Assembly: GCF_001644645.1 (NCBI RefSeq)
Contig: NZ_CP011390.1
Coordinates: 5,845,501 to 5,909,500, forward strand
DNA length: 64,000 bases
DNA from: Flavisolibacter tropicus
Lineage (GTDB): Bacteria; Bacteroidota; Bacteroidia; Chitinophagales; Chitinophagaceae
Direction of reading: 5' to 3'
A model generated the notes under the pieces. That model saw nothing but the letters and a program-made list of their open reading frames with translations, made no database searches and was not told the origin of the DNA. Positions 523 through 27,030 of this stretch are shown here, one piece after another (within the stretch, counting starts at the first letter, position 1; every line of letters starts with the position of its first letter). Position numbers and translations under genes: made by a program.

Positions 523-523
523 T

Positions 524-3500
524 ATGATTTCGGAAAAGAAATTTAGATATAACAATATAGCACAATCGATTTGTATGTTTCGTAGCAACAAAAATAGTCA
601 ACCTAACACTTTCTTCCTTTCAACAACTATTAAGTGTTGTTTATTGGCATTGACGCTGATATTGGGTGCTGTACAGGCAAAATCCCAGGAAAATATTATT
701 GAGGAACTAAAAGGTGTAGTTAAAAGCGATAATGGTGATTTGTTGGCAGGAGCCAGTGTTTTTGTACAAGGTACCAGGCAAGTGACCACTGCAGGGAAGG
801 ATGGTTCTTTTATACTGAAAAATGTTGCAGCCAATGCCACCATCAGGGTGTCATTTGTTGGTCACACGCCTAGAGAAATTAAATTAAAATCTGGCCAAAC
901 CTTTATAGAAGTACGTTTGAGTAGTAATGCTGCTACTTTGTCTGATGTGGTAGTGAATGTGGGATTGTATAAGCGTCCAAAAGGAAACTTCACCGGTGCT
1001 GCCAAATCATTTAGCGGAGAAGAATTGAAATCCGTGAATCCTACCAACGTATTACAAGCTTTAGCAATAGTAGAGCCATCTATGCGTATTGTTGAAAACA
1101 ATGCCTTGGGTAATGATCCTAACCAGTTGCCCATTTTGCAGCTTAGAGGTCAGAACAATTTACCCATTACAACACAGGGAACTACATCAAGTGCGGCAAC
1201 CCCTGTATCAAATGGTGATATGATGTCAAGCTATTTGTTGAACCCCAATCAACCGCTCATTATTGTAGATGGATTTCAAGCAACCTTGCAATCGTTATAC
1301 GATATGGACATTAACCGTATTGCCAGCATCACCGTTTTGAAAGATGCAGCAGCTACGGTAGCCTATGGCGCCAAAGCTGCCAACGGTGTTATTGTTGTAG
1401 AAACAAAACAACCTTTACCTGGAAAATTGCAAATCAGCTACTCTGTTAATGGAAGTGTTGAATTGGCTGACTTATCTTCCTATCGTTTGCTAAATGCCAA
1501 AGATTTTTTAGAGGCACAGCGCCTGGCAGGTATTTATAGCGATCCGGATAATCATTATAATGATGTGGCACTGAAGCAATGGTACGATTATCGTTTGAAC
1601 CAGGTGCAAAGCGGTGTGAATACGTATTGGCTATCACAGCCTTTAACAACCGGGCATACATTGTCGCATAGCTTGTCAGTAGGAGGAGGATCCGGAAACT
1701 TCCGTTATGGTCTTTCTTTAAACTACAATGACGCTAGTGGTGTTATGAAAGGTTCAGGGAGAAAGAATTTTGGCTTGAATTACAACCTTAACTATGTATT
1801 GCCAAACTTTCGTTTTTCCAATACTTCTTCCATCAATTCCAGTAGAGGAAATAATTCGCCATGGGGCTCTTTTTCAGATTATGCGAAGCAGTTTCCTTAC
1901 TTCCGCCCTTATGATGATGCTGGTAACATCGTTAAGCTATTTGAGCCAACAGCAGCCGAACTGGGTTTTTTAATACCTGCTCCTGGCGGTAAAACATATA
2001 CGAATAGTATGTACAACGCCACGCTGAATATGGTTGATTATTCCAATTATTGGTCGTACTCCAATGCTACCAATATCGATTGGTCGATCAACAGCAACTT
2101 CAAGGTGCAAGCCAACTTCCGGTTGTCAACTAATTTGCCTCAATCTGAAAAGTTTTTGCCAGCTGACCATACCGATTTCGCTGACGATGTTTTAGGCCGG
2201 TTTGTCGATTTAGGCTCTTATACAAAATCAACAGGTAAGAATTCTGCCATAGATGGTAGAGTTGGTCTGACTTACAACAAAAGCATTGGTAAACATTTGA
2301 TTCTTACTGCGCTTGGTATTTCGGGCCAGCAAACGAGCGGTAATTCTCTTACCCTAAAAACAACGGGAATCCCTAATGATTATTTAGGGGAATTGGGAGC
2401 TGCCAACGGCTATGGCCTTACTAGCAAGCCTTCTTCCTTGATTAATAACACACGCAGTCTTTCCCAGTTTTTAAGTGTTAGTTATAGTTACAATGATCGT
2501 TATACAGCTGAGGCAACGGCTAATGCCAGCGGCTCTTCCCAGTTTGGATCTAATAATCGTTTTGCCCCTTTCTGGGCGGGTGGCCTTTCCTGGAATGTAG
2601 ATAAAGAAAAGTTTTTTAAGAAGAACTGGTTTATTCAACAATTAAAATTCAGGGGTAGTTCTGGTATTACAGGTAATCAAAACTTTGCAGCATCAATGGC
2701 TCAGCAAATTTATAATTACAATTTGTCGAATGAATACCGTGGCCAGTTGGGTGCTTACACCAATGCGTACGCAAATCCCAATTTAAAATGGCAACAAACA
2801 CTGAAGAATAATTTGGGCGTGCAAACCTCTTTATTAAATGGGCACATCCTGTTGAATGCTGAACTGTTTGTTGAAAAGACAAACAACCTGATTCTGCCGC
2901 TTGATGTGGCGCCATCAACGGGCTTTGCTACTTACCAGGATAATTTGGGTGCTGTAGAAAGCAAAGGCTACGAGCTATCAGTAAGTATGCCGATCATTCG
3001 CAATAGGGCAAGGAATATTTTCTGGTCGCTTGCATTTAATACAGGCCACGCTACAACCATTATTACTAAGCTTTCTCCGGCTATTGATGCGATCAATAAG
3101 AAGAATAATGAGAAAGATAATACCATAGATGGTGCAAAGAAGCAACAAACACCATTGCCCCGTTTTGTGGTAGGGCAGTCTATGAGTACCATTTGGGCAG
3201 TACGGTCTTTAGGAATTGATCCGGCTACAGGTAAGGAAGTTTTTTTGAAATTGGATGGTAGTAAAACGTTTGATTGGGATGCTAATGATAAATACCCGGT
3301 GGCTGATGCTCAGGCTAAGTTTAAAGGTATGTTTGCGTCTAACCTGACTTTTAAAGCTTTCACGTTCAACATAAACCTTTCTTACCAGCTTGGTGGATAT
3401 AAATACAACCAAACCCTGGCAGACAAAATAGAAAACGTTGATCTGAAAAGTACCAACGCAGATATACGTGTTTTAACGGAGCGATGGAAGCAACCTGGTG

Positions 3501-3787
3501 ATGTAACCTCGTATAAGGCCTTGACGGCAAATGGTAACACAGGGGTTTTAATGACCAATGCTACTTCCCGTTTTGTGCAACGCGATAACTTTATTGAAGC
3601 GTCCAGTATTACAGTAGGTTACAATTTCCCCAATAACTTAAACTGGGTGAAACGATTGAAGTTATCAACGCCTAAACTATTTATTACTCAAAACCAGGTC
3701 TTTCGTTGGGGAACCATAGAGGTGGAAAGAGGTACCGCTTATCCATTCACCCGCCGATTCAATTTAGGGTTAACCTCGACTTTTTAA
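524..3787 (+). CDS. SusC/RagA family TonB-linked outer membrane protein
   Basis: 1087 residues. TonB-dependent importer that moves a SusD-bound ligand across the outer membrane. A hydrophobic signal peptide lies at about residues 37-54 (ALTLILGAVQAKSQ), then a carboxypeptidase-regulatory-like beta domain (about 60-150), a plug domain (about 160-295) with the SusC signature NPNQPLIIVDGF and an LKDAAATVAYGAKAANG strand, then a long beta-barrel ending in a terminal Phe. Met1 at 524 gives an unusually long N-terminus; Met18 at 575 gives a more normal signal peptide and is the likelier start. It has no STN domain, unlike its paralogue at 19819, and no sigma/FecR pair lies next to it in the window. 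It is followed nine bases later by its SusD partner. The ligand is unknown; a peptide is suggested only by the proteases downstream. Confidence 0.96.
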   Translation: MISEKKFRYNNIAQSICMFRSNKNSQPNTFFLSTTIKCCLLALTLILGAVQAKSQENIIEELKGVVKSDNGDLLAGASVFVQGTRQVTTAGKDGSFILKNVAANATIRVSFVGHTPREIKLKSGQTFIEVRLSSNAATLSDVVVNVGLYKRPKGNFTGAAKSFSGEELKSVNPTNVLQALAIVEPSMRIVENNALGNDPNQLPILQLRGQNNLPITTQGTTSSAATPVSNGDMMSSYLLNPNQPLIIVDGFQATLQSLYDMDINRIASITVLKDAAATVAYGAKAANGVIVVETKQPLPGKLQISYSVNGSVELADLSSYRLLNAKDFLEAQRLAGIYSDPDNHYNDVALKQWYDYRLNQVQSGVNTYWLSQPLTTGHTLSHSLSVGGGSGNFRYGLSLNYNDASGVMKGSGRKNFGLNYNLNYVLPNFRFSNTSSINSSRGNNSPWGSFSDYAKQFPYFRPYDDAGNIVKLFEPTAAELGFLIPAPGGKTYTNSMYNATLNMVDYSNYWSYSNATNIDWSINSNFKVQANFRLSTNLPQSEKFLPADHTDFADDVLGRFVDLGSYTKSTGKNSAIDGRVGLTYNKSIGKHLILTALGISGQQTSGNSLTLKTTGIPNDYLGELGAANGYGLTSKPSSLINNTRSLSQFLSVSYSYNDRYTAEATANASGSSQFGSNNRFAPFWAGGLSWNVDKEKFFKKNWFIQQLKFRGSSGITGNQNFAASMAQQIYNYNLSNEYRGQLGAYTNAYANPNLKWQQTLKNNLGVQTSLLNGHILLNAELFVEKTNNLILPLDVAPSTGFATYQDNLGAVESKGYELSVSMPIIRNRARNIFWSLAFNTGHATTIITKLSPAIDAINKKNNEKDNTIDGAKKQQTPLPRFVVGQSMSTIWAVRSLGIDPATGKEVFLKLDGSKTFDWDANDKYPVADAQAKFKGMFASNLTFKAFTFNINLSYQLGGYKYNQTLADKIENVDLKSTNADIRVLTERWKQPGDVTSYKALTANGNTGVLMTNATSRFVQRDNFIEASSITVGYNFPNNLNWVKRLKLSTPKLFITQNQVFRWGTIEVERGTAYPFTRRFNLGLTSTF

Positions 3788-3796
3788 AATGACAAT

Positions 3797-5305
3797 ATGA
3801 AACGGATTCATTTCAATATAAAACACTTGCGAAATACAGGTATGAATACAAGGTTATGGAAGGTGGCTATTGGGTTACTACTATTGGCACCTGGCATTAC
3901 TGGTTGTAAAAAGTTTCTGGATGTGCAACCAAAAGACAAGGTGCCTGAATCCATCCTGTTTAATGATGAACAGGGATTTAAGGATGCCATGTTGGGCGTA
4001 TACCTGGCTTTAGATAAGCCGCAAAACGGTGGAACCTATGGATTATATACGACCAACCTTACGATGGGCATGCTTTCTACATTAGCCTATAATTATGATA
4101 ATGCAAAAACGGTTTCTGTAGGAAATAATGGATTTTATAGCAATGTAGTATCCTATAATTATGCTGATGCTGGAGTTAAGGCTGAAATGGCAGGTATCTG
4201 GGGCGGTATGTACAATACCATTTCCAATATCAATAACCTATTAAGCAAGATTGATAATAAAAGAGATGTGTTTACCAGGGATAATTATTTCCGGGTAAAA
4301 GGTGAAGCTATAGGTGCACGTGCAATGCTGCATTTTGACTTACTACGTTTATTCGGTCAATCGCCAGCTACAGGGCTCAATGAAAAAGCCATTCCCTATG
4401 TGCGCCATTTTGATATACGTCCAACTTCTTTTTCTACGGTAAGTGAAGCATTGGATTCTTGTATTCAAGATCTGCACCTGGCTAAAGGTTTGTTGGCATT
4501 AACTGATACGTCAGCGTTATCCCATGCTTCATATGACTTGTTTACCGGCTATACCCAAAACCATATCAATTACTGGGCTGTTGAAGCCTTACTGGCCAGG
4601 GCACATATGTACAAGGGCAACCTGGATAGCGCTAATTATTATGCAGCGGCAGTAATTGGTAGTAATAAATTCCCCTTAATTACATCCAATGTGGCGGCAG
4701 CTACTAACCTTACACGCGATCGCCTGTTTTCTCAAGAACTATTGTTCTCTGTGTACTCCAAAAATGTTAAGAACTACAATGGATTGTTTGATGTCAGTTC
4801 AGGTACGCCATTTCGCTTAATGCCGGCAGGTAAGACGGCGTTGTATACAACAGGAAGTGGAAGCGCTAATGATTATCGTAACATTTCCTGGTTCGACAAT
4901 AACCAGGCAGGTGTACAGGTGCCTTCCAAGTTTTTCCAGGATAATAACCTGCCCTATCAGTTGCAAAGTAATGTGCCCATCTTGAGGGTATCGGAAATGT
5001 ACTATATAGCTGCAGAAGCTGCTAACAGTAAGGGCGATATTGGTACTGGCGTTTCCCTGTTGAACCAGGTTCGTTTGAGTCGCGGTTTAGCTGCTTTAAA
5101 TGCATCAGGCATAAGTACTACCGATAGCGTTTCAACAGAGATTATGCGCGAATATCAAAAAGAATTTATGCAGGAAGGACAAACGTTCTTTTATTATAAG
5201 CGATTGAACAAAGATCTATCAAAGGTTACTTCTACTACATCTGTCATACCTGCCAATGTGTACGTATTCCCATTGCCGGACAAAGAACTGGAGTACAACC
5301 ATTGA
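3797..5305 (+). CDS. RagB/SusD family nutrient-uptake outer membrane lipoprotein
   Basis: 502 residues as read from 3797; Met16 at 3842 is a likelier start because it places the lipobox APGITGC-KK at Cys22. SusD proteins are alpha-helical (TPR-like) lipoproteins on the cell surface that bind ligand and hinge onto SusC. Family hallmarks are the CKKFLDVQPKD N-terminus, the FNDEQGFKDAMLGVYLAL helix, WGGMYNTISNINNLL, GEAIGARAMLHFDLLRLFG, and the C-terminal YQKEFMQEGQTFFYYKR and FPLPDKELEYN. It sits between SusC (9 bases upstream) and a DUF4843 lipoprotein (3 bases downstream), so it belongs to a SusC-SusD-DUF4843-PKD operon. Ligand not predictable. Confidence 0.96.
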   Translation: MKRIHFNIKHLRNTGMNTRLWKVAIGLLLLAPGITGCKKFLDVQPKDKVPESILFNDEQGFKDAMLGVYLALDKPQNGGTYGLYTTNLTMGMLSTLAYNYDNAKTVSVGNNGFYSNVVSYNYADAGVKAEMAGIWGGMYNTISNINNLLSKIDNKRDVFTRDNYFRVKGEAIGARAMLHFDLLRLFGQSPATGLNEKAIPYVRHFDIRPTSFSTVSEALDSCIQDLHLAKGLLALTDTSALSHASYDLFTGYTQNHINYWAVEALLARAHMYKGNLDSANYYAAAVIGSNKFPLITSNVAAATNLTRDRLFSQELLFSVYSKNVKNYNGLFDVSSGTPFRLMPAGKTALYTTGSGSANDYRNISWFDNNQAGVQVPSKFFQDNNLPYQLQSNVPILRVSEMYYIAAEAANSKGDIGTGVSLLNQVRLSRGLAALNASGISTTDSVSTEIMREYQKEFMQEGQTFFYYKRLNKDLSKVTSTTSVIPANVYVFPLPDKELEYNH

Positions 5306-5308
5306 TAA

Positions 5309-6121
5309 ATGCTTAATAAAGACAATTTTAAATTACACGATATGAAAAAATGGACCGCTTCCATTTTAGTAGCTGGGATTCTAAGTGTGTTTACTTCTTG
5401 TGAACCGGATAAACCCCTGCGATTTGAAACAGCTGACGGTATTTACTTTAATGCCGCTGCTGATAGTATTATTTATTCATTTGCTAAATATCCTAACCGG
5501 TTAGTTGATACGATAAACATTCCCGTTTCAGTGTTAGGCAAACCTGCTACGCAGGATCGCGAAATAGGAGTAATGGCTGTTGCTGATACAGAGGGAAATG
5601 CAATAGAAAATACACATTATAAGCTATTGCCACCCTATAAGATTTTAGCCAATAGTACTACGGCACTGATGCCTGTCGTAATATATCGTTCAGCTGATTT
5701 AGATAATGCACCGGCTGTTTTAAAGTTGCAGCTAAAAGAAAATGACCAATTCCAGCTAGGGATTTCTGCTAAGTCATCTATAAAACTCAAAGTGGGTTAC
5801 TTACAAAAGCCACCATCTTGGGGCGATCCGACCGGTTTTCCCTGGGCAGGTGCTAGTACCAATTTTGGTACCTGGACCAAAACAAAATATAAATTAATCC
5901 TGGAGGCGTTGTATGATCCGATTAGCGGCACTACTGTTACGGAATTTGCAGGTAATCGTACCGTCGGACAGTTTCCTGCTATAAATACACAATACTTGCA
6001 AGCAGTAATAAACTATATCCGAACAAAATATCCAGGCAACTATACTGGTACGGGTGCTACACTTACCGATCCAGATATACCCAATAACCCTGTTATCAAG
6101 GTAGGACCTGCCAATTATTAA
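5309..6121 (+). CDS. DUF4843 domain-containing lipoprotein
   Basis: 270 residues from 5309; Met12 at 5342 is the better start, giving a short signal peptide and a lipobox ending SVFTSC. The DUF4843 family consists of SusCD-associated lipoproteins of unknown function. The visible pattern is an N-terminal strand DGIYFNAAADSIIYSFA, a middle segment where tolerance to 'DREIGV' and 'ALMPVVIYRSADL' recurs, and a C-terminal helix beginning WTKTKYKLILEAL. The protein at 24708 has the same layout and occupies the same place in the second cluster. It is likely an accessory surface protein of the SusC/SusD complex; this is inferred from position only. Confidence 0.88.
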   Translation: MLNKDNFKLHDMKKWTASILVAGILSVFTSCEPDKPLRFETADGIYFNAAADSIIYSFAKYPNRLVDTINIPVSVLGKPATQDREIGVMAVADTEGNAIENTHYKLLPPYKILANSTTALMPVVIYRSADLDNAPAVLKLQLKENDQFQLGISAKSSIKLKVGYLQKPPSWGDPTGFPWAGASTNFGTWTKTKYKLILEALYDPISGTTVTEFAGNRTVGQFPAINTQYLQAVINYIRTKYPGNYTGTGATLTDPDIPNNPVIKVGPANY

Positions 6122-6160
6122 TTCGTTTCTCTTGAAAACATTCATTCACGAAGAAAAAAT

Positions 6161-7873
6161 ATGAAAAAGCACTTTATACCTGCAAGCATATCTGTACTGA
6201 TCTTATTTGCATTTGTTGCCTGTAAAAAAGATTTAGGCAATTATAAGTATACAGACGTCAACACCATTACAATTACCACGGACATGGCAAATGTTGATCC
6301 GCAAGTGGTAGTTACGAATGACTCCATTGTTTTAAGGCAAAATGATAGTCTGAAACTGGATATCCTATTGTCGCAAACGCAGCAAAGTGATGATCTATCG
6401 TATCAATGGCTCATTACACAGTCTTCATCAAGTGAGGTCAATCCAGCGCAATACATTTTAGGGAACGAAAAACAATTGCGGACAAAGATCACTGTGCCAC
6501 CCAATATTTATCGATTGGTTTTAAAAGTGACCGATAAGAAAACCGGCGTGTCGTTTTATAAATATTATAGCATCAATGTTGATACCTCACCTTGGGGTGG
6601 TGAAGGTTGGTTAGTATTACAGGAACAACCTACTCAAGCAGGTTGTGATTTATCGATCATTACAGATCGTGATGGCAAAGGAAATGGAACAGTATACAAT
6701 AATTTATATTTCCAGGCGAACGGTCATAAATTACCTCTAGGGACATATAAAACAGCCGTACTAAACTATAGCAGCACATTGCGTATTCAGAAAGTTTCAT
6801 TTTTTTATCCTAACGGGGGAACGCAGGTACGTTCTTTGGATTACCTTGATTCTAGTAATCATAACGGTTGGTTTTACCTTCCTCCTTCTGTAGTAAATAT
6901 TAAGGAGAATAATGTATTCCCGGCTACAGGGCAATATGAATATGTTATCAATAACGGCCAGATTCATTTCCAGCAGGTAAATGCCACATCAATAAAAACC
7001 CCGCCTATAAAATTAAGCGTACCCTTTTTGGGCACATGGTCCGAATTACATCCTTCTGTACTTATGGGTAATGCAGATGGTACGTTTACCGTTTTTGATA
7101 AGGTCAACCGTTGCTTCTTCACCATTTGGAACAATAGTGGAACGCCGACACTTGTTCCGTCTGCCAGAGCGGATACGGCTAATCGCCATTATGCCCCTTA
7201 TCCAGCAGCCAGCGCTGCTAACTTATTGCCAACAGGCAAAGGCTTTGATTTGAACAATATGAGACATAACCTCGTATATGCCGAAAATGTAAGCCCAATG
7301 ACAACAACTCCCATTTATTACGATTGTATTTTCAGAAATACACCTGGTGATTCTACCTTTCTATACCAGTTTCCGGGAGCAAATTCAGGAGCCGGTGGCG
7401 GATATGCCAATAATTTTGCGACAGGCCGTTTTTACTTAAGTGAAAGCAAGGTTCCTGGAATCACTACTGCTTCCATTTTTGCCATGCCTACATTTTTAAC
7501 CATATTGGCAACGACCTACGGTGTGTTTTACTATGTACATGGTACGAATAAAAACAGTATTTATGTCTGTTCGCCATCTTATACGGGTACTATGCCTGCT
7601 ACCACTACTTCTAGTTTGGGTCATAGTTTCCCAGTTGGAACTATAATCAAAGCCATGAAGGTATTTAAGTCAGGTTATAGCGCTACTGGTTTGCCTTCAA
7701 CAGAAAGCAAAGTACTGGTGGTAGCTACCGATGAAACGGCTATTGGTAATGGCAATAATGTCTATTTCTTTAACCTGACAAATGCAGGAGGAATAATTAC
7801 AACTCCATTCAAGGTATATTCCGGATTTGATAATATTGTGGATATCACCTTTAAGAAAGGTTTAGGTCTATAA
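6161..7873 (+). CDS. PKD-like family lipoprotein
   Basis: 570 residues. Signal peptide with lipobox FAFVAC, Cys21, followed by KKDLGNYKYTDVN, the usual N-terminus of SusCD-associated PKD-like lipoproteins. A PKD/Ig-like beta domain spans about residues 30-150 (SYQWLITQSS, YRLVLKVTDKKTGVSFYKYY), and the remaining ~420 residues look all-beta, probably a propeller-like fold that begins with GEGWLVLQEQ. It is the last gene of the first SusC cluster, closed by a hairpin terminator. The paralogue at 25496 is the last SusCD-type gene of the second cluster. It is probably surface-exposed and may bind ligand, but no function has been assigned from sequence. Confidence 0.87.
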   Translation: MKKHFIPASISVLILFAFVACKKDLGNYKYTDVNTITITTDMANVDPQVVVTNDSIVLRQNDSLKLDILLSQTQQSDDLSYQWLITQSSSSEVNPAQYILGNEKQLRTKITVPPNIYRLVLKVTDKKTGVSFYKYYSINVDTSPWGGEGWLVLQEQPTQAGCDLSIITDRDGKGNGTVYNNLYFQANGHKLPLGTYKTAVLNYSSTLRIQKVSFFYPNGGTQVRSLDYLDSSNHNGWFYLPPSVVNIKENNVFPATGQYEYVINNGQIHFQQVNATSIKTPPIKLSVPFLGTWSELHPSVLMGNADGTFTVFDKVNRCFFTIWNNSGTPTLVPSARADTANRHYAPYPAASAANLLPTGKGFDLNNMRHNLVYAENVSPMTTTPIYYDCIFRNTPGDSTFLYQFPGANSGAGGGYANNFATGRFYLSESKVPGITTASIFAMPTFLTILATTYGVFYYVHGTNKNSIYVCSPSYTGTMPATTTSSLGHSFPVGTIIKAMKVFKSGYSATGLPSTESKVLVVATDETAIGNGNNVYFFNLTNAGGIITTPFKVYSGFDNIVDITFKKGLGL

Positions 7874-7898
7874 GTTATATAAACTTACGCTTGCTATT

Positions 7899-7929
7899 AA
7901 CCTGCTTCTGTTATGGGAGCAGGTTTTTT
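7899..7929 (+). terminator. Rho-independent terminator after the first SusCD cluster
   Basis: An eight-base stem AACCTGCT / AGCAGGTT with an 11-base loop, followed by six T residues. It lies 26 bases after the stop of the PKD-like lipoprotein gene. Confidence 0.85.
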
Positions 7930-7972
7930 GTTTGAACCAGGATTTGGGGAGATTAAGGGATTAGGAAGAAAT

Positions 7973-8012
7973 GGGTTGACAGGTTGACTAGTTGACAAGT
8001 TGATAAGTTGAC
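7973..8012 (+). repeat. Five tandem 8-base repeats, consensus NNGTTGAC
   Basis: Five head-to-tail octamers: GGGTTGAC, AGGTTGAC, TAGTTGAC, AAGTTGAT, AAGTTGAC. Spacing is exactly eight bases throughout and only the first two positions vary freely, apart from one C-to-T change. Confidence 0.9.
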
Positions 8013-8311
8013 AGAAAGGAGAATAATGAACAAGGAACAAGGAATGAAGAAAGAAGGGGAGGGGAATGGTCAATGCGCAATGTTCAAGTGGAGGAAATGA
8101 CCACAACATGTAATGCCTTTTGCTGTAAGGCGTAACTCGTTTCAGCATCTGTTTTCACATTAAAGAAAGCCTAAACCCCACAGGAACACATACCCTAAAA
8201 TCCCAATATCTCTTCTCCCAAATCCCTAAATCTCCCCAAATCCCGGTTCAGCCATCCTTCCTCCACTGCCACTCGGCCGCTCCTCCTATGCCATGCCGCT
8301 GCTCCTCCTTG

Positions 8312-8377
8312 GTTACTCCGTTACCCCCCAATAGTTACTCCGTATCCACCCCTCAGTAACTCCGTACCACCACCGTA
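8312..8377 (+). repeat. Three tandem 22-base repeats
   Basis: GTTACTCCGT at 8312 and 8334 and GTAACTCCGT at 8356 recur at exactly 22-base spacing; the 12 bases between them are C-rich (for example TACCCCCCAATA, ATCCACCCCTCA) and only loosely conserved. A weaker fourth unit may follow at 8378. It is not a CRISPR array: the units are too short, and the intervening bases are related to one another. Confidence 0.85.
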
Positions 8378-8570
8378 CTACATCCGGTCTACCTGCCCTC
8401 CCAGGTCCGTACACTAACTAGGCAACCTACTTACAAACAATTAGAAATAGTAGAGAAAAGCGTAATAAGAAGAACAGGAAATGTGCTAAAAGAGAAGAGG
8501 CTAAAGATACAAAAAAGCAACAGGTACTGCTAACCTAAGGCCAGGTATTCTAATAAGCGGCTTGGCGTTT

Positions 8571-8709
8571 AGCTTGCAGCTTGCAGCGTGAAGCCTATCG
8601 CTTGCAGCTTGTAGCTTGTAGCTGTCTCCTCACAGCTCGCAGCTCATAGCTCACGGCTCATGGCTTTTCCCTGCGTGCAGCGTATAGCTTACAGCGTGCA
8701 GCTCTCACT
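8571..8709 (+). repeat. Degenerate heptamer repeat tract, consensus AGCTYRY
   Basis: About 20 heptamers, largely in phase: AGCTTGC at 8571 and 8578, then AGCGTGA, AGCCTAT, CGCTTGC, AGCTTGT twice, and after one interruption AGCTCGC, AGCTCAT, AGCTCAC, GGCTCAT, ending with AGCGTAT, AGCTTAC, AGCGTGC, AGCTCTC. A second, shorter tract of the same kind lies at 17437-17553. Confidence 0.85.
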
Positions 8710-8837
8710 GCCGTTAACATCTCTACAACACTAAATCCTGATTCTCAAACTTGTCAACCATTTTCTATAGTTGGTGTAATATGTTTTAGATACGCATAAA
8801 GTAACTGGTAGCTTTAAAGGCATTTATTTAAAGCCTA

Positions 8838-11342
8838 ATGCGATCATTGAAAAAGTCAACTAATATGCAATCAAAACGTATTGTTCTCTCCTTGTTTGTG
8901 GGTTTGCTGGTAGGTACAGCAGTGGCACAGGATACGGCTTCAGTAAAGAAGCCGGAAGCAGCGAAAGTAAAATCTTATGGGGAAGTGATCACTTCGAAAG
9001 CGGTAAGCACCCAAGGTTTGTTTACTGTACATAAGGTGGATGAAAAATATTATTTTGAAATTCCGGATGATTTATTGTCACGGGAGTTTTTATTTACCAC
9101 ACGTTTATCTAAGGTTGCTACTGGTAGCCCATTGTTTGGTGGAGAGCTTATGAACGGGATGATTGTATCATTTGAAAAAGCGCCAGGTGATAAATTATTT
9201 GTGCGTGCGGTAACCAGCGTAGCCGTATGTGATACATCAGATGCACTTTATCGTGCTGTAAAAAATGCAACGGTTGATCCTATTATTATGGTGCTCGATA
9301 TAAAAGCACGAGGAAAAGACAATAAATCATCCGTTATTGATTTTACTGACTTCTATCTTAAAGAAAACCTGATTTCGGGCTTCAGTGCTGAAGCTAAAAA
9401 AATAATCAGAACAGGAGCGCCTGCGGCTGATAGATCATTTATCCTGTCAATGGATGCCTATCCGCAAAACATTGAGATTAAAACAATGAAAACTTACGGC
9501 CTCAGTGGTGGAGCTCCAAAAGAGGGTGAAGCTACTCCAGCTGTTTCATCTTTTGTCGGGGTTACATTTGAAATTAGCAACTCGGTATCGATCTTACCTA
9601 AAACTCCAATGGCGGCCCAGGTATATGATCCTCGCGTAGGCTTCTTCTCCGATAGTTATCAAGTGTTCTCTGATGCGCAACAGCGTGTAGAAGAAAAACG
9701 TTTTATTATACGTAACAGACTTGAGGTTAAACCAGAAGACCTGCAACGATACAAAGCTGGTGAACTTGTGGAGCCTAAAGAGCCTTTGGTATATTATGTT
9801 GATCCGGCAACGCCTAAGCAATGGCGTAAATATATTATTGCAGGAATTAATGATTGGAATGAAGCCTTTAAAGCGGCTGGCTTTAAAAATGCAATCATTG
9901 GAAAAGAATGGCCAGAGAATGATCCTTCAATGAGTTTGGAAGATGCACGTTACAGAGTAGTGCGTTATTTTCCTGCTGTAACTCCTTTCTCTTATGGACC
10001 AAAGTTGAATGATCCACGTACCGGCGAAATTTTACAATCCTATATCGGTTGGTCACATAGCCAGATTAAAACCTTGCATGATTGGTACATGGTTCAAGCA
10101 GGTGCCAGTGATCCTGGAGGAAGAACGATGAAATTTGATGAGGAGTTAATGGGTGCATTGATACGTGCTGATATTAGCCGAACGGTAGGTTTTACACTTG
10201 GTTTACGTGAAAACTTGGGTAGCAGCTCAACTATTCCGGTTGAAAAATTAAGAGATAAAAATTGGCTGGCTACTCATCCGTTTAACCACTCCATTATGGA
10301 TTACAACCATTACAACTACGTAGCACAACCTGGTGATCAGGTTTCGCGTACGGGATTGATCCCTCAAATAGGTGAGTACGATAAATGGGCCATTAAATGG
10401 GCTTATACCTATACAGGTGTTACTGATTTTGAAGCGGACAAAAAAATTCGTTTGAAGTGGATCACTGATAACGTAAAGCCAGGTTCAAAATTAATCTTTA
10501 TGGGAGATCAGGGTGGAAATCCAAGTGATCCGATCAATCCAGCTGCACAATGGGAAGATTTGAGTAATGATGGCGTTAAAGCAAGTGAGTATGGCGTTAA
10601 AAATTTAAAAATAGCAATGGCCAACCTGCTTAAATGGACTAAGACCGAAAATGGCACTTATTATACTACATCAGACCTGTATTATACTATATGTGATCAG
10701 TTCTCTTTTCTTATTCGTCAGGCGTATTCACAAATTGGTGGCGTTCGTGAAAACATCGCGAATTCAGGACAAGGCGATGTTTATGCTCCGGTTCCTAAAG
10801 CGACTCAAAAAGCGGCGGTGGCATTTTTAAATAAAGAAGTGTTTAATACGCCTACTTGGTTATATGATCCGAATGTATTGAATAAGTGGGCAAAGCCTGC
10901 CAAAAAAGAAAACTATCAAAAATTCCAGGATAATACCCTAATGTATGTAATTAATGAGGATCGTCTATTAAGAATGCATACCGCAGAAATGCGTTTTGGT
11001 AAAGAGAAGGTTTATACGGTTGATGAATTTATCACTGATTTGAATAAAGGTCTTTTTGCTGAATTGCAAACCCGCCAATCTGTTGATAGTTATAAACGCT
11101 TTGTGCAAAAACAGGCTGTAGGCTATATGCTTAAAATTGCACAATTGGGCGATAAACTTCCTGATGGGAAAACAGATAATTTAACTACCACTGATGTTCC
11201 TGTAGTGATGCGTTCTCACTTAAAAAATATTTTGGTTCAAATTAAGGCAGCTATTCCATCGTACACAGATCCAGTAATGGTTGCACACCTTAAATATATG
11301 TCGCAAAAAATCGACAGTTATTTAAATCCAAAGAACAATTAA
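8838..11342 (+). CDS. DUF5117/DUF5118-type metalloprotease homologue lacking the zinc-binding motif
   Basis: 834 residues; Met10 at 8865 is an alternative start directly before the signal peptide (IVLSLFVGLLVGTAVAQ). The layout matches the 838-residue neighbour at 11377 throughout: N-terminal DUF5118-like segment (about 45-90), DUF5117 (about 95-300), then a metzincin-like domain. Where the neighbour has HEVGHTLGLRH, this protein reads RTVGFTLGLRE (residues 448-458). All three zinc-binding histidines and the catalytic glutamate are therefore replaced, while the intervening residues, the following N-G-SSS stretch and the Met-turn SIMDY (485-489) are kept. The frame is intact, so this looks like a conserved pseudo-enzyme, possibly a partner or binding subunit of the neighbouring protease. 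It is secreted or periplasmic. The gene begins the protease-TlpA group after the repeat spacer. Confidence 0.92.
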   Translation: MRSLKKSTNMQSKRIVLSLFVGLLVGTAVAQDTASVKKPEAAKVKSYGEVITSKAVSTQGLFTVHKVDEKYYFEIPDDLLSREFLFTTRLSKVATGSPLFGGELMNGMIVSFEKAPGDKLFVRAVTSVAVCDTSDALYRAVKNATVDPIIMVLDIKARGKDNKSSVIDFTDFYLKENLISGFSAEAKKIIRTGAPAADRSFILSMDAYPQNIEIKTMKTYGLSGGAPKEGEATPAVSSFVGVTFEISNSVSILPKTPMAAQVYDPRVGFFSDSYQVFSDAQQRVEEKRFIIRNRLEVKPEDLQRYKAGELVEPKEPLVYYVDPATPKQWRKYIIAGINDWNEAFKAAGFKNAIIGKEWPENDPSMSLEDARYRVVRYFPAVTPFSYGPKLNDPRTGEILQSYIGWSHSQIKTLHDWYMVQAGASDPGGRTMKFDEELMGALIRADISRTVGFTLGLRENLGSSSTIPVEKLRDKNWLATHPFNHSIMDYNHYNYVAQPGDQVSRTGLIPQIGEYDKWAIKWAYTYTGVTDFEADKKIRLKWITDNVKPGSKLIFMGDQGGNPSDPINPAAQWEDLSNDGVKASEYGVKNLKIAMANLLKWTKTENGTYYTTSDLYYTICDQFSFLIRQAYSQIGGVRENIANSGQGDVYAPVPKATQKAAVAFLNKEVFNTPTWLYDPNVLNKWAKPAKKENYQKFQDNTLMYVINEDRLLRMHTAEMRFGKEKVYTVDEFITDLNKGLFAELQTRQSVDSYKRFVQKQAVGYMLKIAQLGDKLPDGKTDNLTTTDVPVVMRSHLKNILVQIKAAIPSYTDPVMVAHLKYMSQKIDSYLNPKNN

Positions 11343-11376
11343 TTAGACTTTTATTAGAACGATAATAAAGCCGGTA

Positions 11377-13893
11377 ATGAAATTAAAAATAACGTTTATA
11401 GTGTTTTTGGGGCTGTGCAGTAGTACGCTAATGGCACAATCCAAAAAGGTTCAGCAACCTATGGTTAAAGCTGATACCGTTAAAAAAGCTTCGCCGTTAA
11501 GTAACATCATAACAAAGAATACAGAGAGCAAAATAGGGTTAATCAGTATTCATAAAACGGGTGATAAGTATTATTTCGAAATTCCTGATTCAATATTAAA
11601 ACGAGAGTTATTAGTAACTAACTGGTTGGTAAAAGTGCCGGGTGGTAGTCCAAAGTTTGGTGGTGAGATGATGGGCCAAAAAACGATCTGTTTTGAAAAA
11701 GGATTCAATAATAAGCTGATGTTGCGAGTGGTAGATGTCTTTACCAAGGCCGACTCAAGCAATGCCATTTCAAAAGCCGTTGAAAATTCAAATGTTAACC
11801 CTATTGCAACGCTTTATGATATCAAAGCAAGAGGTGAAAGTGGTAAAAGCTCAATCATTGAGGCGACAGATTTTCTGAAAAATGAAAATTCTTTCACAAT
11901 GATAGGACCTGAGGTTAAAAGCAGGTTGGGACTTAGCTCAATGGCTGCAGATAGAAGCTGGGTGAAAAGTGTAGCTGCGTATCCTATTAATGTGGAATTA
12001 AGAATGGTACGTACCTATGGAGCTTCAGGTGCACCTACGAAAGGCCCGGGCGGTCGTGATATTCCTGCTACAGAAGCGGCCAGAATCGCAGGAGCCGTAA
12101 CACTTGAAGTATCAACTTCTATTTTACTAATGCCGGAAAAGCCAATGATGGGTCGCCATTTCGATATGCGCGTAGGCTATTTTGCTGATAATGCTGGCTA
12201 CATTCCAATCGCTGATGATCAACAAAAAATTGACGGTAAAACGTTTATTGTTCGTTATCGTCTGGAGCCTAAAGCTGAGGATATGGAAAAATACAAAAGA
12301 GGTGAATTGGTTGAGCCAAAAGAGCCAATTGTGTATTACATCGATCCGGCTACACCTAAACAATGGCGACCGTATCTGATTGCAGGTATCAACGACTGGA
12401 ATGTCGCATTTGAAGCTGCCGGTTTCAAAAATGCCATTATTGGTAAAGAATGGCCTGAAAATGATACCACCATGAGCCTGGAAGACAAACGTTATAAAGT
12501 GTTGCGCTATTTGCCTTCAGATGTTGCTAATGCATATGGCCCGAATATCCATGACCCAAGAAGTGGAGAGATTTTAGAAGGTTACATTGGTTGGTTCCAC
12601 AACGTAATGAGCTTGGTGCATGATTGGTATATGATACAGGCAGGTCCAAATGATCCCAGAGCGCGTACAATGAAATTTAGCGATGAGTTAATGGGTGAGT
12701 TGATCCGATTTGTATCCTCGCATGAAGTGGGCCACACCTTAGGTTTACGCCACAACATGGGTAGCAGCAGCTTAACTCCTGTTGAAAAATTAAGAGACAA
12801 AGAATGGGTTGAAAAACACGGTCATTGTAACTCAATTATGGATTATGCCCGTTTCAATTATGTTGCTCAGCCAGAAGACAGCATTGGCTCTGCAGGGATT
12901 ATGCCGCGTATTAATGATTATGACAAATGGGCCATTAAATGGGGATATACCTACATTGGTGCCAAAGATGATGAAGAGGATAAGAAAATTGTATCAAAAT
13001 GGATTGTTGACAGCTTGGCTGCCAACCCTAGATTATGGTTTGGTGGTGAAGGAATGAATCATGATGGGCGTTGTCAAACGGAAGATATGGGTGATAACAG
13101 CATGAAGGCGAGTGAATACGGTATTAAAAATTTGAAATACGTAATAGCTCACCTTCCTGAATGGACTAAGGAGGAAAATGATTTAAATAAAAATCTAACC
13201 CAAATGTACATTCAGGTTGTAACTCAATATAGACGCTACGTGCAACATGTTGTTGGAAACATAGCCAGCACGTACGAAACCATTAAAACGCCTGATCAAC
13301 CTGGTGATTGTTATGCTCCGGCTCCAAGAGAAACACAAAAGGAAGCGGTGGCTTTTTTAAACAAACAGGTTTTTGAAACCCCAAATTGGTTGCTGGATGA
13401 AAACTTGCTAAATAAAATTGGCAGCCCTGCTCGTATCGGCTCTGTTAGTACGGTTCAGGAAAGTACGATAATGCAGTTGACAAGTGATAGGGTGTTCAAT
13501 ACCTTAAACATGGCGGAACAGCGTTTCGGTAAAGGAAAGACCTATTCGATGGTTGAGTATTTGTCGGATTTAAAAGCTGGCATTTTCAGCGAATTAAAAA
13601 CCAATAAACCAATCGAGATTTTCCGTCGTGATGTACAGAAGTTTTATATCCAGGGTCTTTTTAGAGCATTGCAGGAATCTGAAAAAGGAGAGAATATCGT
13701 TGCTCTGTTAATGATGCCGAATGCAGCGGAAGAGCAGCCTGTTACTGTGGGTACTGACGTTGGTCCTATACTGCGTTTGCACTTGGAGAATTTACGAAAA
13801 GAGATATTAGCTGCTGTTCCAACTATAAAAGATAAAGACTCAAAAGAGCATTTGTTGTTTGTAGCTGAGAGAATTAAAAAAGCTTTAAAATAA
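11377..13893 (+). CDS. Zinc-dependent metalloprotease (DUF5117/DUF5118, metzincin-like)
   Basis: 838 residues with signal peptide ITFIVFLGLCSSTLMAQ. Domains in order are a DUF5118-like segment (about 45-95), DUF5117 (about 100-310) and a metzincin-like catalytic domain with HEVGHTLGLRH at residues 449-459 (three zinc histidines and catalytic Glu450) and Met-turn SIMDY at about 486-490. A C-terminal helical region of ~250 residues follows. It is expected to hydrolyse peptides or proteins outside the cytoplasm; substrate unknown. It lies 34 bases after its inactive-looking paralogue, so the two are probably translated from one message. Genes of this family are commonly seen beside SusC/SusD/DUF4843/PKD-like clusters, as here. 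Confidence 0.94.
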   Translation: MKLKITFIVFLGLCSSTLMAQSKKVQQPMVKADTVKKASPLSNIITKNTESKIGLISIHKTGDKYYFEIPDSILKRELLVTNWLVKVPGGSPKFGGEMMGQKTICFEKGFNNKLMLRVVDVFTKADSSNAISKAVENSNVNPIATLYDIKARGESGKSSIIEATDFLKNENSFTMIGPEVKSRLGLSSMAADRSWVKSVAAYPINVELRMVRTYGASGAPTKGPGGRDIPATEAARIAGAVTLEVSTSILLMPEKPMMGRHFDMRVGYFADNAGYIPIADDQQKIDGKTFIVRYRLEPKAEDMEKYKRGELVEPKEPIVYYIDPATPKQWRPYLIAGINDWNVAFEAAGFKNAIIGKEWPENDTTMSLEDKRYKVLRYLPSDVANAYGPNIHDPRSGEILEGYIGWFHNVMSLVHDWYMIQAGPNDPRARTMKFSDELMGELIRFVSSHEVGHTLGLRHNMGSSSLTPVEKLRDKEWVEKHGHCNSIMDYARFNYVAQPEDSIGSAGIMPRINDYDKWAIKWGYTYIGAKDDEEDKKIVSKWIVDSLAANPRLWFGGEGMNHDGRCQTEDMGDNSMKASEYGIKNLKYVIAHLPEWTKEENDLNKNLTQMYIQVVTQYRRYVQHVVGNIASTYETIKTPDQPGDCYAPAPRETQKEAVAFLNKQVFETPNWLLDENLLNKIGSPARIGSVSTVQESTIMQLTSDRVFNTLNMAEQRFGKGKTYSMVEYLSDLKAGIFSELKTNKPIEIFRRDVQKFYIQGLFRALQESEKGENIVALLMMPNAAEEQPVTVGTDVGPILRLHLENLRKEILAAVPTIKDKDSKEHLLFVAERIKKALK

Positions 13894-13917
13894 TCCTCCA
13901 ATAAACCTTAATTAATG

Positions 13918-13935
13918 CCCGGCCGTAAGGCCGGG
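13918..13935 (+). terminator. GC-rich hairpin after the metalloprotease pair
   Basis: Perfect seven-base stem CCCGGCC / GGCCGGG with a GTAA tetraloop, 24 bases after the stop codon. It is followed by ATAAATTAAAT rather than a T run, so it may be an inefficient terminator, an attenuator or an mRNA-end stabiliser between the protease and TlpA genes. Confidence 0.5.
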
Positions 13936-13966
13936 ATAAATTAAATCTAGGAGAAGAAATAGTAAG

Positions 13967-14077
13967 ATGAAATTGTTGCTGCCATTCCAATGGTTTCAGA
14001 TAAGAAAACAAGAGACCATTGGAACTACGTGGTGTAGCAGATCAAATCAGGACTGGAAAAACGTTTCTAAAAATTGA
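13967..14077 (+). CDS. Possible 36-residue small ORF before the TlpA pair
   Basis: Runs from ATG at 13967 to TGA at 14075-14077 and contains MKLLLPFQWFQIRKQ near its start. A purine-rich GGAGAAG lies at 13950-13956, 10 bases before the ATG. Its stop overlaps the proposed TTG start of the next gene in a TTGA arrangement typical of translational coupling. A near-perfect 13-base inverted repeat (13985-13997 with 14012-14024) lies inside it. It could be a short leader peptide or just chance; no homologue is recognised. Confidence 0.3.
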   Translation: MKLLLPFQWFQIRKQETIGTTWCSRSNQDWKNVSKN

Positions 14078-15507
14078 AAAGGATGTTTAAATTCAAAAGC
14101 ATAACGGCCATAGTGTTGACTACACTAGTCAGCCTAGCGGGAAATGCGGCACCTAAAAACACGACCCTTACCTGTAAGGTTTATAATCATGCCGGAAGCG
14201 CTGTTTCTCTATATAAAGTGGAAAACGGCGAAGCAAAGCGCCTGGAGTTTAGACGTCCCGGTAACATGGATACCTGTCGGTTTTCAATCGACATGGAAAA
14301 AGAAGGTATTTACTTGATTCGTAAAGGGGCCTCCAAGCAATCAGCTTTTAACTATGTTATTTACCTGAAACCGGGAGATAATAAAACCGTAACTATTTAT
14401 AATAGTTTTGTGGCAGTTGATTTCGACAGTTGCAAAGTGATCAGCCCCAATAGTGAAACTGTGTCTTTGCAAAAATGGACTGACTTGTTTAACAACTACT
14501 GTAAGCAAGGGCTCTTCAGAAACAAACGCGACCAATATGTTGCAGATTATAGCATCTTGGTAAAGCAGGCAGAGGAGTTAAAAAGAAAGGCGGTATCCAA
14601 AAATCAGTACTTTAATTATTTATTTGCTTCTAAAGTAAATGCAGAACTCCTATATGCTAAAGCCGCGGCTTTTTTCAATTACGGAGAACGCATGAATGGT
14701 GATGTTGACACCAACTCACTAAATAAGACTTTTTACCAGGCCTTAGGTAAACAAAAGTTCACAAATGCCTGTGTATTGCAGTCAGAGCATGGTTTACAAT
14801 TGGTGAAATACTGGTTAGGTTATAAACTGTTTTTGAAACTAGGGCAACAGGAAAAAATGTTAGCCGCTTCTTTTATTGAAAAGGCGAATGCTATTAGTAA
14901 TGATTCCATAAGAAGGGCTTTTATTCTTGACCATATGGAAGGAGTTACCAATTACGAGCAGTTTAAAGCCGATATACAGCCCTTTAAAAAGCTTTTTAAT
15001 ACGGCAGAGACGAAATTAGTTTATCAGCATAAAGAAGATGAACTAACGGTATATGCCAAGGGGGCGCCTGCCTATAACTTTTCGTTAACTGATACAAAAG
15101 ACAAAACCGTTTCTCTATCAGATTTTAAAGGAAAGGTAGTGGTATTAGATATATGGGCTATGTGGTGTGCACCATGCCTGCAGGAAAAGCCTTTCTTCCA
15201 AAAGATAGAAGAAGAATATAAGGACAGGGGTGATATCGTTTTTATTGGCGTATCGCATGATGGAGTAGCAAGAAAAGAAAATTGGAAACAATTTGTTGCC
15301 AGGAAAGGATGGGAGGGGATAGAGTTGATTGCTAATTATAACGAGTCAATTGGCAAGTATTATAAAGTTGAAGGAATACCTCGCTTAATGATATTTGACA
15401 AAGAGGGCAAAATTGTAACCGTAGATGCTCCCCGTCCTTCCAGTCCGGAGTTTAAAAAATTAATTGATCAAACACTGAAAACTTCTGATCGTGTTACCAA
15501 TCCTTAA
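14074..15507 (+). CDS. TlpA-like thiol-disulfide oxidoreductase, first of a pair
   Basis: 477 residues counting from TTG at 14074; an in-frame ATG at 14083 is equally possible and removes only MKR. Signal peptide (ITAIVLTTLVSLAGNAA), then a ~330-residue N-terminal region that begins with a beta domain and continues as a helical linker. The C-terminal thioredoxin fold (about 335-470) carries WAMWCAPC, with redox cysteines 365 and 368, and a cis-Pro loop GIPRLM. Proteins of this class reduce or exchange disulfides in the periplasm. It overlaps the following paralogue by 17 bases, so the two are co-translated. Its place after two secreted metalloproteases suggests a role in handling disulfide-bonded peptides; this is inference. 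Confidence 0.9.
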   Translation: MKRMFKFKSITAIVLTTLVSLAGNAAPKNTTLTCKVYNHAGSAVSLYKVENGEAKRLEFRRPGNMDTCRFSIDMEKEGIYLIRKGASKQSAFNYVIYLKPGDNKTVTIYNSFVAVDFDSCKVISPNSETVSLQKWTDLFNNYCKQGLFRNKRDQYVADYSILVKQAEELKRKAVSKNQYFNYLFASKVNAELLYAKAAAFFNYGERMNGDVDTNSLNKTFYQALGKQKFTNACVLQSEHGLQLVKYWLGYKLFLKLGQQEKMLAASFIEKANAISNDSIRRAFILDHMEGVTNYEQFKADIQPFKKLFNTAETKLVYQHKEDELTVYAKGAPAYNFSLTDTKDKTVSLSDFKGKVVVLDIWAMWCAPCLQEKPFFQKIEEEYKDRGDIVFIGVSHDGVARKENWKQFVARKGWEGIELIANYNESIGKYYKVEGIPRLMIFDKEGKIVTVDAPRPSSPEFKKLIDQTLKTSDRVTNP

Positions 15508-17269
15508 AAAATTTTTATCCTTTATCATTTGTTTGGCTATTGTTACTGCTGCTAATGCGCAAGACAATATCCACTTTTTAACTGGAACGATTACTGAAAA
15601 GGTAAATGCTGAGCTTCATGTTTTTAAGATCGTAGATAACAAGCTGCAACGGTTGGCGCAATATCCTATTACGCCAGATAATAAGAGTTTTGTATTTGCT
15701 ATACCAAAAAATGCAGACGCTGCTTACCGGTTTCAATTGAATCTGCTAAAGCCGAATGGCAGGCATATGAAGGTTGAAAAGATCTTTGTTCTTCCATTGT
15801 CGCTTAATGCCAATCAAAACTACCTATTAAACATTACGCCGTCTAAAATTGATACGGCTAAAAAAGTGGGATGGGTATTAAAACAGGATTTCACAAAACC
15901 GACTACTGCTTTAATAAGCGGGAGAATAGTGAACCTGAAAATGAATACGACGCTTTCTCTACAAAAAGTAGTGAATGGTGAGTTAGAAGAGATTGGCAGT
16001 TTTGCTACAACGGGTGATAATCATTTTGAAATTGGCTGCCAGGTGAAACAAGAAGGGTTTTATTATCTTTCTACACTTCGTTCTCGTACCAGGATTTATA
16101 TAAAGCCCGCCGATAAACTGGAAGTAACTATTGATAATAAAACGGGTGAGCTGTCTTACGCTAACGGATCACCAGAAATGCAGCAGCTATATAAATGGCA
16201 ACAACTGATTTTACCAATCACTAACTATGGCTATAATATTTCCATGCCACCTTCAGACTCTATTGATCTGAATGCCTATATCAATACTAATGAAAAGTTG
16301 CAGCCGGCTTTGAATGCTTTTTCTAAGAACTTAGATCAAACAAATCCTCGTTTCTTAAAAGCATTTAATTATGCTATGCAAGTAGACAGGGAGTTGGCTC
16401 CCATGAACTTGTTATATTATTTATCTGTTCCAAAAGTAAAAGGGTTTAGGCCAAGGCCAAAAGAGTTTAATGAGGTGCCACCTTTTTATACGCAATTGAT
16501 TCAGCCGGGCAAATTCGGAAATGCCTCTATTTTAGTGCTTGGAGAGGCAAGGCAATTCATGAATTTATATGCTAAACTCAACCTTGCGCTATTGTCTAAA
16601 GAGGAGAGAGGAAAGCTATCGCAAAGCGAAAAGCTTAGATTGATGATGAATAGCATATCCAATGATACGCTGAAATCAGTTTTATTTACTGATCTAATGG
16701 GGCAAATAGAAGTAAATAATCTTAGTGAGTTTAGGGAAACTTTTGAGCCGTTTAAGAAGTACGCAAAAACGGGAGAGGCTAAAGCTACTTATCAAAGTAT
16801 CTATAACTTATTCAGTGACGATACGGCCTTCATTGGTAAATCGTCTTACAACTTTACGCTTCCCGATACCAGTGGACGGATGGTGAATATGAAGGATTTT
16901 AAAGGTAAAGTGGTGTTTATTGATGTATGGGCAACCTGGTGCGGCCCCTGTAAGGAACAGTTCCCTTTCTACAAAGAGATCGAAGAAGAATATAAAGACA
17001 ATAAGAATATTGTTTTTGTGGGTATTTCTATTGACCGTGAAAAAGATCGTGAAAAATGGCTCAATATGATTAAAAAAGAAAGCCTGGGTGGTTTACAACT
17101 ACTGGATGATACAGGGAAAGCATTTGCCAGACCTTATCAAATTAACGCTATACCACGGTTCCTGTTGATAGATAAACAAGGCAAGTGGATTGAAATACGT
17201 TGTCCTAGACCTGAGTCAAAAGAAAACCTGAAAAGATACCTGGATAAAGCATTAAGTGAAAAACCATAA
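15491..17269 (+). CDS. TlpA-like thiol-disulfide oxidoreductase, second of a pair
   Basis: 592 residues from a GTG start at 15491, inside the end of the previous gene. The start is supported by an immediately following signal peptide (FLSFIICLAIVTAANAQ). A long N-terminal region of ~440 residues contains two related beta segments (FLTGTITEKVNAELHVFKI and ISGRIVNLKMNTTLSLQKV), suggesting an internal duplication of the beta domain that occurs once in the neighbour. The C-terminal thioredoxin domain (about 450-590) has WATWCGPC with cysteines 484 and 487 and cis-Pro loop AIPRFL. Likely periplasmic or outer-membrane-facing thiol-disulfide exchange. The strong terminator at 17364 closes the operon. 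Confidence 0.9.
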   Translation: MLPILKKFLSFIICLAIVTAANAQDNIHFLTGTITEKVNAELHVFKIVDNKLQRLAQYPITPDNKSFVFAIPKNADAAYRFQLNLLKPNGRHMKVEKIFVLPLSLNANQNYLLNITPSKIDTAKKVGWVLKQDFTKPTTALISGRIVNLKMNTTLSLQKVVNGELEEIGSFATTGDNHFEIGCQVKQEGFYYLSTLRSRTRIYIKPADKLEVTIDNKTGELSYANGSPEMQQLYKWQQLILPITNYGYNISMPPSDSIDLNAYINTNEKLQPALNAFSKNLDQTNPRFLKAFNYAMQVDRELAPMNLLYYLSVPKVKGFRPRPKEFNEVPPFYTQLIQPGKFGNASILVLGEARQFMNLYAKLNLALLSKEERGKLSQSEKLRLMMNSISNDTLKSVLFTDLMGQIEVNNLSEFRETFEPFKKYAKTGEAKATYQSIYNLFSDDTAFIGKSSYNFTLPDTSGRMVNMKDFKGKVVFIDVWATWCGPCKEQFPFYKEIEEEYKDNKNIVFVGISIDREKDREKWLNMIKKESLGGLQLLDDTGKAFARPYQINAIPRFLLIDKQGKWIEIRCPRPESKENLKRYLDKALSEKP

Positions 17270-17763: not shown

Positions 17764-18399
17764 GTGCGCCTATCCAAATCTTTAGAAACAAAGTCGGTGT
17801 TAACAACGGAAAAAATAAATGATGATAAAAAGCTACTTGAAAGCATTGCCGAAGGTGATGAACAAGCGTTTCTGATGCTTTTTAAAAGATTTGCGCCCCT
17901 GATACGGCCCTTTGCCCGTCACATTACCCATTGTGAGAAAGGGGCCGAAGATATTTTACAAGAGACCTTTATGCGGGTTTGGCTGTACCGGGATAAACTA
18001 CCTGAAATTCATAATCTTAAAAGCTGGATTTTTACAGTAGCGGCGCATGAATGTATGCGGTACATGCGCCAAAAATTAACGTACGAGAAAAAAGTCAAAG
18101 AGTCGGAAACGCACTCCTTAAAATCGGAGAACACTTCTCCTTTAGATTTTGTCCAACTAAACGAAATTAACGGGGTTGTAAAAAAGGTTGTAAATGCAAT
18201 GCCGCCACAACGAAAGTTGATTTTTCAGATGAGTCGGGATCAAGGTCTTAAGCCATCAGCCATTGCAAACCATTTAGAACTGTCAGTAGGTACAGTAAAA
18301 AATGTTTTGTCCTTAGCACTTAAAGAAATACGTGAACATCTGGTACGTTCCGGTATTCCATTAAGTATCCTTCTTTACCACTTCTATTATTTTTTTTGA
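17764..18399 (+). CDS. ECF-type RNA polymerase sigma-70 factor (FecI-like)
   Basis: 211 residues from a GTG at 17764. Region 2 is seen at about residues 25-100 (DEQAFLMLFKRFAPLIRPFARH, then GAEDILQETFMRVW and LKSWIFTVAAHECMRYMRQ); region 4 with its helix-turn-helix lies at about 140-195 (PPQRKLIFQMSRDQGLKPSAIA, LSVGTVKN). It directs RNA polymerase to a small set of promoters, normally those of the linked SusC operon. It is followed by the FecR anti-sigma gene 105 bases downstream and by a SusC with an STN domain, the complete three-part surface-signalling set. The C-terminus ends in an unusual hydrophobic stretch (SILLYHFYYFF). Confidence 0.95.
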   Translation: MRLSKSLETKSVLTTEKINDDKKLLESIAEGDEQAFLMLFKRFAPLIRPFARHITHCEKGAEDILQETFMRVWLYRDKLPEIHNLKSWIFTVAAHECMRYMRQKLTYEKKVKESETHSLKSENTSPLDFVQLNEINGVVKKVVNAMPPQRKLIFQMSRDQGLKPSAIANHLELSVGTVKNVLSLALKEIREHLVRSGIPLSILLYHFYYFF

Positions 18400-18504
18400 A
18401 AATCTTATTTCAGGATGTGACGTTTTTCTTTTAGCCGGTTCTTATCAATAAGTATGGGCTGTACAAATAAGCATAGTCGCTTTTTAAAGCCCAGACGCTA
18501 AAGA

Positions 18505-19704: not shown

Positions 19705-19818
19705 GGCACTGAATCCCCAACAAACGACAATCACAGGGAAGCCTAATCGGGAATGGTCCGTTAGGATCAATTAATTAACAGAACTAACATCTATTAATAA
19801 ACCACAAACCAAACGTCT

Positions 19819-23205: not shown

Positions 23206-23241
23206 GAGAGAATATTCAATTAATAAAAAGAACTGGTTAAC

Positions 23242-24666: not shown

Positions 24667-24707
24667 GTAGTAGTCAACCCATTTCTAACATTAAATCGAT
24701 TCTATTT

Positions 24708-25448: not shown

Positions 25449-25495
25449 AATCACAGAGAGAGAGATCAAACATTCCCAATCGAAAACTCTAAACA

Positions 25496-27010: not shown

Positions 27011-27030
27011 TATCTAATTAAGTCTCATAG

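Follow-up and report, generated by a model that had tools for sequence, protein, structure and literature searches.

Pseudoproteases are best known from eukaryotes. In mitochondrial processing peptidase and the bacterial M16B pairs, an active beta and an inactive alpha paralogue make up one protease, and the inactive paralogue aids substrate binding. The TldD/TldE heterodimer is located in the cytoplasm. One TldD/TldE subunit carries the metal site, the other has kept none of the metal-binding residues, and both are essential for activity (PMC5810440). A dead paralogue retained with a live partner is also described for the prozyme of trypanosomal AdoMetDC, which is not a protease (PMC5201418). 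Live/dead pairs as such are therefore already known, while the family considered here and the recurrence of such pairs within it are new to us; no mention of DUF5117 or DUF4953 was found in the literature searched.

TldD/TldE is the closest worked-out case, and common to both systems is that related live and dead paralogues are kept together. It belongs, however, to another family with the motif HExxxH plus Cys, its complex is known from crystals whereas a complex here is deduced from the genes, and the DUF5117 pairs go back to five or more independent losses. In fold, motif (HxxEH) and compartment the family also differs from mitochondrial processing peptidase and M16B, and we claim no membership in that group.

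The pair was found in Flavisolibacter tropicus, in a stretch of 64,000 nucleotides that was analysed as a whole and is called the window below. It forms part of an operon-like run with the order SusC, SusD, DUF4843, PKD_2, two proteases and two TlpA-like proteins:

524..3787, + strand, SusC-like TonB-dependent transporter (Pfam)
3797..5305, + strand, SusD-like protein (Pfam)
5309..6121, + strand, DUF4843 protein (Pfam)
6161..7873, + strand, PKD_2 (PKD-like) protein (Pfam)
8838..11342, + strand, inactive DUF5118-DUF5117-DUF4953 protein (pseudoprotease), 834 aa (ORF, Pfam, motif)
10179..10211, + strand, lost zinc site RTVGFTLGLRE, residues 448-458 of the first protein
11377..13893, + strand, partner metalloprotease with intact motif, 838 aa (ORF, Pfam, motif)
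12721..12753, + strand, intact zinc site HEVGHTLGLRH, residues 449-459 of the second protein
14074..15507, + strand, TlpA-like thioredoxin-fold protein (Pfam)
15491..17269, + strand, second TlpA-like thioredoxin-fold protein (Pfam)

The two protease ORFs lie on the + strand and are separated by 34 bases; a further ATG is present 27 bases inside the frame of the first. The proteins are 46% identical (840 alignment columns), and in both of them DUF5118, DUF5117 and DUF4953 ('Met-zincin') score far above the Pfam cut-offs, so both are full-length members of the DUF4953/DUF5117/DUF5118 family. The motif HExxHxxGxxH is present in the second protein (HEVGHTLGLRH) and absent from the first (RTVGFTLGLRE), where R448, T449, F452 and E458 correspond to H449, E450, H453 and H459 of the second. 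The change of all three ligands and the catalytic Glu, on which the preliminary description of this DNA was built, was thus confirmed, as were the intact 834-residue frame and the Met-turn, SIMDY being retained in both proteins. Compared with the 'zinc-dependent metalloproteases' of this family (PF16313/PF17148/PF17162), the first protein has the same domains at full length but lacks the zinc site. Its predicted fold was of good quality (pLDDT 83.6, pTM 0.83). Judged by eye, the N-termini of both proteins resemble an ordinary signal peptide and contain no lipobox, which suggests that both may be exported.

The extended stretch (L077) contains an additional SusC and SusD ahead of the run, upstream of the window. 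With two SusC/SusD pairs, two proteases and two TlpA-like proteins among its genes, the operon most likely serves the uptake and breakdown of peptides or proteins. It is adjoined at 17764-34538 by genes for a sigma-70-type (ECF-like) factor, a FecR-like protein, SusC, SusD, DUF4843, PKD_2, a TlpA-like protein, an S46 peptidase, another TlpA-like protein and a DsbD-like protein, which constitute a second, differently equipped peptide-utilisation locus. The S46 peptidase in this like-built neighbour (SusC-SusD-DUF4843-PKD_2) supports a proteolytic role of the operon with the protease pair.

The preliminary description left to be established whether an inactive subfamily exists in other species and always neighbours an active copy. 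Both proved to be so in the sets read. A homologue search placed 5506 of 7999 scored candidates over the threshold, and the best 120 of these were taken as relatives; together with the window's two proteins and the copies from fetched loci they gave a tree of 182 rows, in which motif columns were included, near-duplicates were few and the window's first protein was entered twice. A single branch (support 100) sets apart all 118 inactive rows, a number that includes the window's own copy twice and comes from best-120 lists; a lost site common to a whole clade is not a matter of chance. The inactive copy was full length in 15 of 44 loci fetched from genome contigs (L006-L020), and in each of these 15 an intact copy follows it directly in the same operon. 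The same arrangement was seen in seven of seven further stretches (L078-L084), five of which share contigs with L014-L018, and in five of five more (L097-L101); the locus and genome sets behind these counts overlap. In L097 (10626-13141) the inactive copy is full length and its intact partner is broken up into two ORFs that overlap, so either uncoupling occurs or the assembly contains an error.

Among 394 genomes of the window's family, with two candidates scored in each, eight had a match above 1000 bits, all eight with an adjacent second match (motifs were read in the window and the seven others). In the family of Pedobacter gandavensis (399 genomes) a match was found in 13, and an adjacent partner above 1000 bits in 12; the thirteenth is L097 with its split partner. 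The pair is patchy in distribution, since, of 395 genomes drawn evenly from the class, the window's genome alone gave a match above 1000 bits.

The order of events can be read from motifs of different degrees of erosion, which among the best 120 form the series HEIGHTLGLRH, REVGHTLGLRN, RQVGYSLGLRT and RTVGFTLGLRE. Among the 118 inactive rows, the first His (H1) is replaced by R or K in 115 and the third (H3) is missing from all, while the Glu is retained in 29 and the second His (H2) in 24. Parsimony places the loss of H1 and H3 before the clade root, where the Glu was still present, with five subsequent changes at the Glu; four changes at H2 fall within the clade and its root state is ambiguous. 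Thus the outer ligands were lost early, and at least the Glu later and repeatedly. We also assembled 56 pairs: the window, 10 loci, and 45 pairs joined from two protein searches (116 and 114 records) through equal-sized contigs, an indirect criterion that does not give gene order. With motif columns excluded, first-type and second-type copies formed separate clades, each with support 100. The second-type copy is intact in all 56 pairs and the first-type copy inactive in 52; the remaining four pairs, intact in both copies, form the basal branch of the first-type clade, so duplication preceded the loss.

That the first gene is a redundant duplicate in simple decay is extremely unlikely. It agrees with erosion having continued after the first losses (the five changes at the Glu and four at H2) and with a faster rate near the site, but is contradicted by full-length frames, the R/K at H1, five parallel cases (see below) and low dN/dS values. 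In seven locus pairs, not all of them independent, the simple Nei-Gojobori counting method gave 0.052-0.131 with the inactive copies and 0.035-0.120 with the intact ones. The relaxed selection over the gene that the preliminary description had named as a sign of decay was therefore not seen, and its proposal of a selected pseudoprotease is well supported by the conserved clade, the live partner in every locus read and the low dN/dS. Decay and likewise sequencing error were rejected on account of the conserved clade, the low dN/dS and the presence of relatives in named genomes. On sequence evidence, the dead copy probably works as a partner and is not in decay.

As for what it does, the distribution of changes along the protein is informative. 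Over the 52 pairs the tree length is 9.78 for inactive and 7.82 for live copies, i.e., the inactive ones evolved 1.25 times faster. Dead copies are as conserved as live ones in DUF5118 (divergence ratio dead/live 0.84), DUF5117 (1.00) and residues 601-744 (1.09), and diverge more at 299-430 (2.06), 431-500 (3.78), 501-600 (1.95) and 745-834 (1.21). A scaffold or interface retained for its own sake would be expected to show this pattern, with constraint relaxed at the site and maintained elsewhere. Of the earlier statement that exactly the catalytic residues had been lost, the loss stands and the "exactly" does not: 41 columns that are at least 90% conserved in the 56 intact partners have almost wholly lost their residue in the 52 inactive copies (part of them had already changed in the four intact first-type copies), and the block 431-500 is more divergent than in the partners.

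The inactive copy could also act alone, as a peptide-binding carrier or chaperone that delivers peptides to the protease and forms no stable complex with it. The location in a transport locus fits such a role, as does the lower divergence of residues 299-430 (0.271) and 431-500 (0.316) than of the whole protein (0.391), although both are relaxed; we nevertheless consider it unlikely, as the site is the most relaxed region and the N-terminal domains the least, and no lone dead copy occurs in the sets read. Still less probable by a wide measure is that other catalytic or binding chemistry was gained at the old site. Several residues near-invariant in the 52 inactive copies might speak for it, namely R/K448 (51/52), H491 (43/52) and R627 (52/52), which are not so in the partners or the four intact first-type copies, and Y492 (52/52; F or Y in those four), but the positions of the Glu, H2 and H3 accept many residues across the clade. 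R89, common to inactive and intact first-type copies, is a lineage feature unrelated to the loss.

The distance matrices of the partners correlate with r 0.918 (56 pairs; maximum of 1000 permutations 0.131), or 0.934 without the four intact/intact pairs, and the topologies of the first-type and second-type trees largely mirror one another. The pair also lies in a block that differs from its surroundings:

8808..13978, + strand, two-gene block, 89.6% identity to locus L006 of Paraflavisolibacter caeni

Besides the two genes, the block takes in 30 bases on the left and 85 on the right. Identity of the window to L006 is 69.2% in the left flank (211-7867) and 70-71% in those parts of the right flank that can be aligned; dS is 0.43 and 0.31 for the pair against 1.6-2.9 for the four flanking genes where it was computable. 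By these comparisons the pair is inherited as one unit. In trees, the left flanks of the window and L006 group with Chitinophagaceae and the pair with Sphingobacteriaceae; the second of these groupings is not forced (AU test, p 0.104). The TlpA-like genes fall with Sphingobacteriaceae in L006 and with Chitinophagaceae in the window, and the segment of foreign affinity is therefore not the same in both genomes. The spacer just left of the block (7880-8800) is made of genome-dispersed repeats (73 among the matches listed), of which a stretch of about 106 bases often recurs at about 77-90% identity, parts of it also inverted; these repeats could have served recombination. Mirrored trees and joint inheritance are also expected from adjacency alone, which weighs against reading them as signs of a complex.

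To place the pair within the family, PF16313 was searched in 16 genomes hand-picked for many copies or known pairs, which gave 106 rows; two fragments were dropped, namely a 153-residue frame and the second part of the partner that is split, and the motif was read in the other 104, with a repeat reading for L102-L185. Twenty-eight copies form 14 same-strand tandem pairs, 13 with exactly one dead member and one with none, and each of the 13 dead copies adjoins a live one; among the 76 lone copies of these genomes none is dead (Fisher p 3e-9, an overstatement because the copies are related). In 119 evenly drawn genomes of the class, 40 rows came from 26 genomes: the two of the window, and 38 copies outside any same-strand tandem. 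Thirty-seven of these were intact and one unreadable at one ligand; none of the 37 readable lone copies in this draw was dead, and such pairs are thus uncommon outside the two families. L204 was rejected as a lone dead copy on account of an ambiguous base at one ligand. The motif is intact in L023 and others read later, and in L143 (HEIGHTLGLMH); L048 and L049 stop short of the site, and L074, a fragment, was left unscored.

Seven of the 13 dead copies represent one lineage and six lie outside the window's lineage, in L133-L138, live/dead tandem pairs of four other origins. The dead copy is second in L133, L136, L137 and L138 and first in L134 and L135; those of L134-L137 additionally lack the Met of the Met-turn. 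L132 (8750-14058), an active/active tandem pair, is the sister of the live/dead L138, which gives a second case with the states before and after loss side by side. In a tree of 72 rows, chosen by us out of 140 and analysed under a mixture model with motif and Met-turn columns left out, five losses are required, all in tandem pairs and each forced by branches with support of at least 95. On this ground we reject a common origin of all dead copies; as read from the tree, live/dead tandem pairs arose several times independently, in either gene order. L132, L133, L134, L135 and L138 sit behind SusC, SusD and PKD_2, four of the five with DUF4843 too; L136 and L137 sit behind SusC and a SusD-like or unmatched ORF. 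The ORF ahead of the pair in L137 (6086-7027) has a weak likeness to Peptidase_Mx1, below the cut-off.

The frequency of lone active copies bears on two explanations. The inactive copy might be a regulator, an inhibitor or folding helper silencing the protease until export or arrival of the substrate, and prozyme (PMC5201418) is an example of a dead paralogue activating its partner; yet the 76 lone active relatives evidently do without such a partner, and we regard this as improbable. Most lone relatives get by with no dead partner, which counts against a two-subunit enzyme as well.

We nevertheless hold it somewhat likelier than an even chance that the pair forms one exported protease of two paralogous subunits, the dead one being kept for assembly and/or substrate capture. 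An ancestral duplication would have produced two active copies, the first-type copy would then have lost its zinc ligands, one active site being enough, and the dead copy would be kept because it completes assembly and/or captures and positions the substrate for the active copy. Peptides would enter with the help of SusC/SusD and the DUF4843 and PKD_2 proteins, and disulfides would be reduced by the TlpA-like proteins. The sequence data show the loss of the site, the conservation, the co-inheritance and the recurrence; from them we infer export, the physical complex, the role of the dead subunit, the substrate, and that the live copy needs the dead one.

Tentatively, at slightly less than even chances, this may be extended to the DUF5117 metalloproteases of SusC/SusD loci in general, which would have turned from tandem pairs of two active copies into obligate live/dead heteromers at least five times, in either order; the ancestral enzyme would have had two subunits, its second site being dispensable and its second scaffold not, perhaps because the outer-membrane transporter hands the chain to the dead subunit. 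Source databases name the copies without a zinc site zinc-dependent metalloproteases (e.g., P0007 and P0014), and nothing on a protein-utilisation system of Bacteroidota like this one was found in the literature searched. It is to such a system of Bacteroidota that the pair points. Active/active pairs, half-eroded sites (REVGHTLGLRN) and fully eroded sites occur as a whole series in one bacterial family, and with several independent replicates at hand the question of why dead subunits are kept becomes directly testable.
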